From positions 1 to 10,829 of the forward strand of contig JAEWGQ010000252.1 in assembly GCA_023388235.1 (NCBI GenBank): 10,829 nucleotides of DNA. Reading direction: 5' to 3'. The position numbers and the translations under genes are program-made. This document shows, piece after piece, positions 2,717 to 4,262 of this stretch. The notes beneath the pieces are model-generated. The model ran no database searches. It was not told the origin of the DNA and saw nothing but the letters and a program-made list of their open reading frames with translations. Position 1 is the first letter of the stretch, and each line of letters opens with the position of its first letter. Origin of the DNA: Actinomycetes bacterium. GTDB lineage: Bacteria > Actinomycetota > Actinomycetes > Actinomycetales > Cellulomonadaceae.

Positions 2717-3220
2717 GTGGAGATGAGCGCCATCGCAGCGCACCCGCGGGTCGTCCCGACGATCGGTCCCCGGACCGTCCGGCCCACCCGGGTGGCACGT
2801 GCAGCCGCCCCCGCGCGGACCGCCTCCGTCGTCCGGACCGCTCCCGTCGCCCGTGCGGCGGCTACCGCCCGGACCGCTCCCGTCGCCGCGACGGCCGCGG
2901 CCGTCCGGACCGCTCCCGCCGAGGCGCCGGCGCGGCTGCACCTCACGCGCCGTGGGCGCGTCGTGCTGGTGCTGCTCGCCCTGCTCGTGGTCGTCGCCGG
3001 CGTCATGGGCGGGCGGGCCGTCGCCGACGCCCCGCGGCAGGCCACCGAGGTGACCACGCACGCGGTCGTCGCGGGGGAGACGCTCTGGCAGATCGCCTCC
3101 GACGTGGCCGCCCCGGGCGAGGACGTGCGGGACGTGGTGCTGCGCCTGCAGGACCTCAACGGGCTGCCGGACTCCTCGCTGATCGCGGGCCAGGTCCTCC
3201 TGCTGCCGGCCGGGTCCTGA
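2717..3220 (+). CDS. SOS-controlled membrane LysM protein, probable cell division inhibitor
   Basis: A 167-residue protein (165 from the alternative ATG at 2723). Residues 1-75 are low-complexity, rich in Ala, Arg, Pro and Thr, with degenerate hexapeptides such as VRTAPV/ARTAPV. Then come a basic patch (RLHLTRRGR), one transmembrane segment (VVLVLLALLVVVAGVM, about 82-97) and an outside LysM domain (THAVVAGETLWQIASDVA to AGQVLLLPAGS, about 114-166) that should bind peptidoglycan. Orientation would be N-in, C-out. Divergence from lexA, a LexA box in the promoter and the short TM-LysM layout match YneA of Bacillus and ChiZ (Rv2719c) of Mycobacterium, and the lexA-adjacent position also matches DivS of Corynebacterium. 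These delay division after DNA damage. Function is inferred from context and layout; no hydrolase active site is visible. Start choice is uncertain by two codons. Confidence 0.88.
   Translation: MEMSAIAAHPRVVPTIGPRTVRPTRVARAAAPARTASVVRTAPVARAAATARTAPVAATAAAVRTAPAEAPARLHLTRRGRVVLVLLALLVVVAGVMGGRAVADAPRQATEVTTHAVVAGETLWQIASDVAAPGEDVRDVVLRLQDLNGLPDSSLIAGQVLLLPAGS
2831..2921 (+). repeat. 36-bp-period repeat inside the LysM gene
   Basis: The core GGACCGCTCCCG recurs at 2835, 2871 and 2907, exactly 36 bases apart, with flanking bases also alike (about 20 of 21 in the best pair). It encodes three RTAP motifs twelve residues apart in the cytoplasmic tail. A weaker 18-base sub-period (six residues) is visible as RTASV, RTAPV, RAAAT, RTAPV, ATAAA, RTAPA. 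It looks like tandem duplication of a coding unit. Confidence 0.7.
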
Positions 3221-3363
3221 CCCGAGTCGTATCTTCCCGGCGCTCCGGCGCTCTGGCGTGCTGGCGTCGGGCACTCGCGCAGCTGCCGCGGCGCGGCGTC
3301 GTCGCTGGTCGGCGCACTGCACCACCCGTCCCGCCACATGCTGGGATTAACGAAACTCCCCGC
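3221..3363. other. Non-coding stretch after the LysM gene
   Basis: No convincing gene, and no clear terminator directly behind the LysM stop. Short CGGCG and CTGGCG runs repeat between about 3240 and 3290. GC content drops near 3343-3380 (GGATTAACGAAAC and onward), unusual for this window, and this introduces the promoter-like sequence described separately. Confidence 0.5.
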
Positions 3364-3393
3364 TTGCGTAATTGGAGATCTCGCCTCTAGGGT
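3364..3393 (+). promoter_or_regulatory. Promoter-like sequence for a small RNA
   Basis: TTGCGT (3364-3369) and TAGGGT (3388-3393) are 18 bases apart inside the most AT-rich patch of the gap. The -10 fits TANNNT. Transcription would start near 3400. No ribosome binding site plus start codon follows at a gene-like distance. Confidence 0.5.
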
Positions 3394-3399
3394 GGTGCC

Positions 3400-3570
3400 A
3401 CCTCGAACGGCTGGCTGGGGGGCTCGCCGCGAGGGACGCGCCGTCGTCGCAGCCCACGGGCTCGACGCAGGGGCGTGCAGCAACCGTCCGCACGAGGCGA
3501 GTCGTCGCGGACGAGACGGGACGGGGGCGTCCCCACGAGGGTGGCCGCAGGAGCGGCCACCCTCGTCGTC
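3400..3570 (+). ncRNA. Candidate structured small RNA upstream of nrdR
   Basis: Between a promoter-like sequence and a strong terminator lie about 165 bases with no credible reading frame and several consecutive hairpins. One is near 3453-3476 (CGTCG, bulged C, AGCC, loop CACG, GGCTCGACG). A second is at 3485-3513 (7 bp, one bulged base, 4 bp, six-base loop). A third is at 3518-3533 (GGGACG, GGGG loop, CGTCCC). The 14-bp terminator stem follows at once. nrdR has its own promoter downstream, so this is more likely a stand-alone RNA than a leader. I do not recognise it as tmRNA, SRP RNA, 6S or a known riboswitch. Alternative: the 3' end of a long LysM transcript that finishes at this terminator. 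The evidence is structural only. Confidence 0.45.
3535..3570 (+). terminator. Strong intrinsic-type terminator
   Basis: A perfect 14-bp stem (3535-3548 with 3553-3566) closes on the tetraloop AGGA. The plus-strand tail CGTCGTCTGTC is only mildly T-rich, as is common at high GC. It separates the upstream transcript (small RNA or LysM mRNA) from nrdR. Confidence 0.8.
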
Positions 3571-3658
3571 TGTCGGGCGCGCCCGCCGCGGACGACGGCG
3601 GTCGCGTGCGAGACGGCGTGACCCCGCGCGGACGGGAACGGCGCCGCACGGGACCGTG

Positions 3659-3688
3659 TTGCACCGTCCGCGGCGCGGGTCCTACCGT
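3659..3688 (+). promoter_or_regulatory. nrdR promoter
   Basis: TTGCAC (3659-3664) and TACCGT (3683-3688) are separated by 18 bases, downstream of the terminator and about 74 bases before the nrdR start. Both hexamers fit the housekeeping sigma pattern. The 5' leader would be roughly 67 bases. Confidence 0.62.
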
Positions 3689-3761
3689 GTCCCGGTCGTC
3701 CGGCCCGGCACGGCGCCCGCCGCCGCCCCGACCGCACGACCACGGATCCGCAGGAGGCCCC

Positions 3762-4262
3762 ATGCACTGCCCGTTCTGCCGCCACGCGGACTCGCGCGTC
3801 GTCGACTCGCGCACCTCGGACGACGGCCTGTCCATCCGCCGCCGGCGCCAGTGCCCGCAGTGCAACCGCCGCTTCTCCACGATCGAGACCGCGAGTCTCT
3901 CCGTGGTCAAGCGTTCCGGAGCCACGGAGCCGTTCAGCCGCGAGAAGATCGTCAACGGCGTCCGCAAGGCCTGCCAGGGGCGGCCCGTGAGCGAGGACGA
4001 CCTCGCCATCCTCGCCCAGCGCGTGGAGGAGACCCTGCGCGCCAGCGGCAGCGCCGAGCTCGACGCGTACGAGATCGGCCTGGCCATCCTCGGGCCGCTG
4101 CGTGACCTCGACGAGGTCGCCTACCTGCGGTTCGCGAGCGTCTACCAGGCGTTCGACAGCCTGGACGACTTCGAGGCCGCGATCACCGTGCTGCGCGCCG
4201 AGAACGAGGTCGCGCGGCAGGCAGCCGCCGACGGCGCCGACGAGGCCGGCGCCGCGTCCTGA
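3762..4262 (+). CDS. nrdR: Transcriptional repressor NrdR
   Basis: NrdR senses ATP/dATP and represses ribonucleotide reductase operons. The 166-residue protein begins with the zinc ribbon MHCPFC (C3, C6) and CPQC (C31, C34), with the basic DNA-binding run SIRRRRQC between them. An ATP-cone follows ([20 protein letters not shown] from about residue 48, through [29 protein letters not shown]). Length is at the upper end for the family because of an Ala/Glu-rich tail. The ATG at 3762 is preceded by AGGAGG at a short four-base spacing. No nrd structural genes are in the window, so its targets lie elsewhere. Its position after lexA and the LysM gene is shared with Mycobacterium (Rv2720, Rv2719c, Rv2718c). 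Confidence 0.97.

Follow-up and report, generated by a model that had tools for sequence, protein, structure and literature searches.

Aconitase and succinate dehydrogenase are classic targets of iron sparing. The small RNAs (sRNAs) known to spare iron, RyhB, PrrF, FsrA, IsrR and MrsI, have arisen repeatedly without sequence kinship (PMC9410917). RyhB, FsrA and IsrR are under the control of iron repressors and lower the mRNAs of iron enzymes, as we propose for the RNA described here, and aconitase is among the putative targets common to IsrR and RyhB (PMC9410917). In Mycobacterium tuberculosis the sRNA MrsI (ncRv11846), likewise of an actinobacterium, is preceded by a promoter that contains an IdeR box, and it targets iron proteins (PMC8628891); it is the only actinobacterial iron-sparing sRNA named in the passages of the cited papers that are drawn on here. 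In Corynebacterium glutamicum it is a protein, not an RNA, the DtxR-controlled repressor RipA, that acts at sdh (PMC1382209).

The locus analysed here is the gap between a LysM protein gene and nrdR in an actinomycete of the Cellulomonadaceae (contig JAEWGQ010000252.1). The window, that is the whole stretch of DNA that was analysed, comprises 10,829 nucleotides. From comparison of this gap with its relatives we propose that it probably contains an independent gene for an sRNA that acts in trans by base pairing and would mediate an iron-sparing response, and the best reading of this RNA is that of a functional analogue of RyhB, FsrA, IsrR and MrsI.

Results

A predicted small RNA gene between LysM and nrdR

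The features of the locus are as follows.

2723 to 3220, forward strand: LysM protein gene, upstream, next to lexA (Pfam LysM; the start at 2723 is a chosen one)
3347 to 3372, forward strand: palindrome TTAACG-N14-CGTAAT overlapping the -35 element (an element of the window subclade)
3364 to 3369, forward strand: -35 element TTGCGT (in the sequence; conserved among relatives)
3388 to 3393, forward strand: -10 element TAGGGT (in many relatives inside an iron box)
3400 to 3568, forward strand: predicted small RNA gene, about 169 nt (start placed by promoter and conservation; models R1 and R2)
3401 to 3434, forward strand: hairpin P1, apical loop UGGGGG at 3416-3421 (fold, pair changes)
3435 to 3484, forward strand: variable P2 region, the least conserved part of the RNA
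3485 to 3513, forward strand: hairpin P3, whose loop GGCGAG (3496-3501) with U3502 is the predicted acn/sdhC seed
3518 to 3533, forward strand: hairpin P4, GGGACG-GGGG-CGUCCC (fold, pair changes)
3535 to 3566, forward strand: P5, intrinsic-terminator-like hairpin of 14 bp without U-tail (pair changes)
3659 to 3688, forward strand: separate nrdR promoter-like pair TTGCAC-18-TACCGT (in the sequence)
3762 to 4262, forward strand: nrdR, downstream (Pfam NrdR zinc ribbon and ATP-cone)

An earlier note on this DNA had described a promoter-like pair in an AT-rich island, a hairpin-packed segment with a perfect terminator stem and a separate nrdR promoter behind it, and all three are present. TTGCGT and TAGGGT are separated by 18 bases in an AT-richer island (GC 0.55 at 3330-3389), and the terminator stem of P5 is a perfect 14 bp closed by an AGGA loop. 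The 180 nt from 3396 to 3575 fold at -110.7 kcal/mol against -93.3 ± 4.5 for shuffled sequence (z -3.9), with 0 of 200 shuffles as good. Judged by the promoter and by conservation, A3400 is the likely start of the RNA. The first base is A in 50 and G in 12 of the 62 rows scored (the 63-row set defined below, minus L142, where the start was misplaced by the model), and a promoter pair of the form TTG..-17/18-TA...T is present in 60 of the 62. A generic promoter and terminator scan of the window listed neither end of the RNA, since the promoter departs widely from the E. coli consensus and the terminator lacks a U-tail.

Conservation, covariation and distribution

The nrdR gene of the window, used as query, yielded 80 loci, the closest of which are from Cellulomonas. 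The gap before nrdR is 73-77% identical to that of four Cellulomonas loci and aligns more weakly with those of Cellulosimicrobium, Oerskovia, Sanguibacter and C. rhizosphaerae. Among the five Cellulomonas rows, identical columns amount to 134 of 169 in the RNA, 26 of 38 in its promoter, 8 of 84 in the spacer after the RNA and 6 of 27 before the promoter; the P2 region (3435-3485) has 31 of 51 and the nrdR promoter region (3656-3705) 34 of 50.

Of 81 sources, namely the 80 loci and the window, a covariance model (R1) built from an 11-sequence alignment detected the RNA in 11 (the window and 10 loci) at E below 1e-14, with nothing comparable elsewhere in them, these being the same eleven sources that built the model. 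In a family sample of 200 Cellulomonadaceae genomes, drawn evenly from a larger group centred on Sanguibacter suarezii (G001), 63 match at E up to 0.001, and 62 were kept. Three of the 66 initial matches are excluded from the counts: L145 and L147, second matches in two genomes, read like ribosomal protein L19 genes and were judged false, and L146 (2988-3114, G167) is a degenerate copy in the right gap in which P4 and the terminator are kept while P1 and P3 are replaced by GGCGACACAGC-like repeats. The 62 genomes and the window make up the 63-row set. A second model (R2), built from 60 of these rows (without L107, L142 and L144) and applied with strict filters, matches 16 of 396 genomes of the order. 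Since all 16 were already known from the family sample or the earlier loci, no RNA outside the Cellulomonadaceae was found among those 396 genomes.

The pairing of the RNA is conserved. Two-sided changes are seen in 36 of the 40 base pairs of the 66-row alignment (counted over 65 distinct rows, including the three later dropped), among them 10 of 10 modelled pairs in P3 and 14 of 14 in P5. The covariation score is 0.383 against 0.147 for shuffled alignments, none of 500 shuffles reaches any covariation measure, and the share of paired cells is 92.3%, compared with 78.6% after shuffling and no more than 56.1% after sliding. A lack of conserved pairing across relatives, which the earlier note had named as grounds for giving up the RNA, is thereby excluded. 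A run of five G lies within the first 75 nt in all 63 rows, including those without GGCGAG; 61 of 63 rows contain GGCGAG at some point in the RNA, and the P4 motif, by the patterns used, is likewise present in 61. When the Rfam 15 covariance models were run against the window and four further loci (L004, L009, L011, L012), the matches listed were all below cut-off and outside the RNA, no family reaching its gathering score, which bears out the description of the RNA as undescribed. Among the matches listed in a search of the open-licence literature (titles and starts of abstracts), no sRNA in a LysM-nrdR gap is named.

The RNA gene is independent of its neighbours

Upstream of the RNA the LysM gene is present in all 62 genomes (all 63 rows), and downstream nrdR is present in 60 (61 rows); in 59 of the 60 genomes with both, the RNA shares their strand. 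A cis-acting nrdR leader or attenuator, or a processed 3' end of the LysM mRNA, would occupy just this position between the two genes, and the P5 terminator could end LysM transcripts. We consider either very unlikely. In one genome (G159; L141, 2994-3174) the entire RNA gene, together with its promoter and terminator, has the opposite orientation to LysM and nrdR, and so the RNA is not an nrdR leader; in such a turned-round copy an nrdR leader or a LysM tail would hardly still function, and a continuous LysM mRNA reaching the terminator, another refuting case of the earlier note, is made unlikely by the same copy. Further evidence against a leader or tail is the RNA's own promoter, with its spacing of 17 or 18 in 60 of 62 rows, and, against a leader, the strong terminator that precedes the separate nrdR promoter and the two loci (L091, L108) that have no nrdR within 1500 bases downstream of the RNA. 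The LysM-nrdR gap is also shorter where the RNA is missing: of the nine RNA-less loci measured, eight have 86-175 bases and the ninth, that of C. gelida, has 299, while the window has 541. With 62 genomes holding the RNA in the same place, we take it that the RNA, on the evidence of its sequence, is a stand-alone gene with its own promoter and terminator, as the earlier idea of an independent transcription unit had it. In L091 and L108 another stretch follows the RNA, perhaps a gene on the opposite strand.

Open frames exist across the RNA, as expected at 77% GC, so that the conserved stretch might be thought to encode a small protein. However, close relatives differ by one-base indels, the lengths of the 63 rows are spread over all residues modulo 3 (30, 18 and 15), and the pairs show compensatory changes. 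This indicates that the RNA is not a protein gene, and we give the coding alternative next to no credence.

An iron box at most RNA promoters

In 48 of the 63 promoters the best match to TTAGGTTAGSCTAACCTAA scores 12-16 of 19, a level reached by at most 4.5% of shuffles of the same stretch (200 shuffles per promoter stretch). This iron box sits over the -10 element and start site or just upstream, and the consensus TTAGGTTAG(G/C)CTAACCTAA is that of DtxR of C. glutamicum and C. diphtheriae (PMC1382209). The other 15 rows, the window and 14 rows of its subclade, score under 12. In the window itself the best score is 10 of 19, matched by 24% of shuffles, and no iron-box match is found at three mismatches.

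Eight genomes were scanned in full, allowing up to two mismatches to the W-degenerate form of the box. In G180 the single site in the genome is the RNA promoter, and in G060 there are three, the RNA promoter and two near genes whose translations read as an HtaA-like protein and a siderophore-interacting protein. The two sites in G027 and the one in G001 lie by siderophore-binding proteins and an ABC transporter (again from translations), not at the RNA promoter, and the remaining four genomes (two of window type, G131 and G065) have no site. G027, G001, G131 and G065 score 12-14, yet their RNA promoters are more than two mismatches from the box; in G131 and G065 they contain variant forms of a TTAGGNNNNCCTAAGTTAG-like operator in two parts.

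The palindrome ATTACG-N14-CGTAAT lies over the -35 element in 15 of 63 rows, which equals the number of rows with an iron-box score below 12. In seven such genomes the RNA promoter is its sole match at zero or one mismatch, bar one 1-mismatch site in G095.

Given the neighbouring lexA and nrdR, the earlier note had been drawn to a role in DNA damage or dNTP supply. We reject such a role, as no LexA-type box is found at or near the RNA promoter, and it is iron metabolism that is indicated by the RNA promoter in most relatives and by the predicted targets. By the SOS consensus as generally known, a perfect box, CGAACAGGTGTTCG, lies at 2672-2685, before the LysM gene, and none within two mismatches lies between 2686 and 4120. 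Two one-mismatch neighbours of it at 2604 and 2656 are placed between lexA and the LysM gene, and it is likely that all three are SOS boxes of the divergent lexA/LysM promoter.

Predicted targets of the P3 loop

The P3 loop GGCGAG, together with the U that follows it, is perfectly complementary to (A)CUCGCC. Target loci (sdhC, ferritin/Dps and aconitase-family) were taken from ten sRNA-bearing genomes chosen for spread. In all ten, CTCGCC was found 1-10 bases before the Shine-Dalgarno sequence of acn, and in nine it stands likewise before that of sdhC. The sdhC seed is absent from G074, in which the RNA is present. These ten genomes, in which the seed was first noticed, form the discovery set; G065, three genomes with a divergent RNA and 22 without the RNA were read afterwards. 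As background, 665,509 bases of nrdR loci contain ACTCGCC in the same setting 0 times and CTCGCC 18 times, and 60 permuted seven-base seeds gave a mean of 1.3 and a maximum of 4 there. In the sdh and acn loci the permuted control reaches a maximum of 8, probably owing to overlap of some permutations with the real motif. Ferritin, Dps and leuC were discarded as targets, the seed being absent at their start sites in the loci examined; in one leuC locus and two ferritin/Dps loci the CTCGCC pattern lies on the opposite strand.

The presence of the acn seed follows that of the RNA. The acn starts came from an automatic finder, for which some start strings were supplied manually. All 11 genomes with the GGCGAG loop have the seed, as against none of 3 whose divergent RNA lacks GGCGAG and 1 of 22 without an RNA next to nrdR (Fisher p = 6e-8, ignoring kinship); ten of the 11 positives are discovery genomes, G065 being the sole new one. 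The only RNA-less genome with the acn seed is C. gelida, and C. alba is one base away. In C. phragmiteti no RNA was found and the sdhC seed is kept. This case and that of G074 fit recent loss or partial target sets, though they were not predicted. Since the NrdR tree was too poorly resolved for a kinship correction, an acn-protein tree of 35 rows was used, which does not include G065, whose acn is fragmented. On this tree there are at least seven changes of the label "RNA with GGCGAG loop". Supported branches provide six independent pairs, of which five or six have the seed going with the RNA and none the opposite (sign test, median p 0.031, range 0.031-0.0625). Complementarity to the ribosome-binding sites of acn and sdhC is a conserved feature of the relatives, in whose genomes the sites were read.

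Genome-wide, six sRNA-bearing genomes each contain 5-12 matches to the strict pattern (ACTCGCC, Shine-Dalgarno, start). The total is 49 against 46 for the reversed control pattern, which means that the case for the targets rests on which genes were matched and not on their number. Both sdhC and acn are among the strict matches in G095, G180, G060 and G001, and sdhC in G156; neither is in G131, whose sites lack the leading A. Nine of the 49 matches are acn or sdhC. Of the remaining 40, 36 were covered by reading 35 regions by eye, and no other recurring gene was recognised, so that at this stringency there is no sign of a large regulon. In the Cellulosimicrobium genome G131, nine of 11 strict matches were examined, and two of them (L332 and L337) lie before genes whose products read as Fe-S proteins, namely lipoyl synthase and a LutA-like protein; these genes are possible further targets.

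C-runs of four or more directly follow the Shine-Dalgarno sequence of sdhC in 6 of 10 genomes. Runs of five C are found in the acn leaders of 11 of 11 sRNA-bearing genomes, 2 of 3 with a divergent RNA and 7 of 22 without the RNA. As a second site the acn run is not diagnostic and, since it also occurs in those seven genomes, it was not relied upon. These runs would also agree with a structured sRNA that has neither an iron signal nor acn and sdhC as targets and acts on other mRNAs or a protein through its G-rich loops, as would the window subclade without an iron box and the P1 G-run that persists in every row, even where GGCGAG is lost. Nevertheless, such an RNA would not account for exact seeds that co-vary with the RNA and lie at the Shine-Dalgarno sequences of two classic operons for iron enzymes, or for iron boxes in 48 of 63 rows, and we regard it as unlikely, the iron-sparing sRNA being preferred.

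Two observations concern the DNA upstream of acn. The palindrome TATCTTGACGTCAAGATA or a close variant lies upstream of acn in several genomes. In seven RNA-less genomes of Microbacteriaceae and Arthrobacter (G562, G564-G567, G569, G570) the acn promoter regions contain TTAGGTNNNCCTTGCTAG-like elements, which resemble the RNA promoter of Oerskovia; in these genomes an iron regulator may act on acn directly.

Discussion

We propose that, when iron is present, a repressor of the DtxR/IdeR type would be bound to the box over the -10 element and start site, and that when iron becomes scarce it would leave and the RNA would be made. The exposed P3 loop, GGCGAGU, would then pair with ACUCGCC just upstream of the Shine-Dalgarno sequences of acn and sdhC in a seven-base kissing interaction, and the predicted pairing would block initiation of translation of both and so save iron. 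The G-rich loops of P1 and P4 may add a second contact to the C-runs in the same leaders. In the window subclade the iron box has been lost though the RNA and its targets remain.

A bolder reading can be put forward tentatively, as conceivable rather than probable. The RNA would represent a new family that spares iron by two loop seeds bracketing the Shine-Dalgarno sequence, the GGCGAG loop upstream and a G-tract loop on the C-run between the sdhC Shine-Dalgarno and the start codon; it would serve in the Cellulomonadaceae in place of a RipA-type protein and, in the window subclade, would have been rewired from the DtxR box to a different operator dedicated to the RNA. Besides sdh, RipA acts at acn, and by analogy a RipA-like logic seems to be run by an sRNA here.

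If the proposal of an iron-sparing sRNA is true, the actinobacteria outside the mycobacteria would have a separate sRNA of this kind, whose predicted signal, seed and targets could be examined directly in laboratory strains of soil bacteria. The gains, losses and apparent change of operator within one family would also offer a natural case of circuit turnover.

Among the actinobacterial sRNAs, Ms1 is likewise predicted in Cellulomonas, but it is tied to synteny with a HAD hydrolase and binds the RNA polymerase core (PMC9130861), and by this description it is set apart; neither nrdR nor lexA is mentioned in that text. The 6C RNA (RF01066) is likewise an actinobacterial sRNA with base-homopolymer hairpin loops, but these are C-rich (PMC8628891), whereas those of the RNA here are G-rich on the transcribed strand. 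The two G-rich hairpin loops of the RNA mirror those of 6C, so that it could be imagined as a decoy or partner of that RNA. We rejected this as highly improbable: RF01066 has no match in the window or the four loci scanned (L004, L009, L011, L012) and is absent from 10 of 10 sRNA-bearing genomes, in a search with a weak control (14 genomes, in which only C. glutamicum was matched, below cut-off).

The comparison with the iron-sparing sRNAs is closer. MrsI differs in lying in the blaI-rv1847 gap, in its length of 100-106 nt and in its targets hypF and bfrA, fprA also being named (PMC8628891); the RNA here lies in the LysM-nrdR gap and is set apart from MrsI by that description. Nothing here points to homology with RyhB, FsrA, IsrR or MrsI: there is no Rfam match, the neighbours of MrsI differ and the seed differs. 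The gene neighbours of RyhB, FsrA and IsrR are presumably different as well. Whereas IsrR and FsrA have C-rich regions, the RNA here has a GGCGAG loop seed and G-rich loops. We call it a new family that is a member of a known functional kind, the iron-sparing sRNAs.
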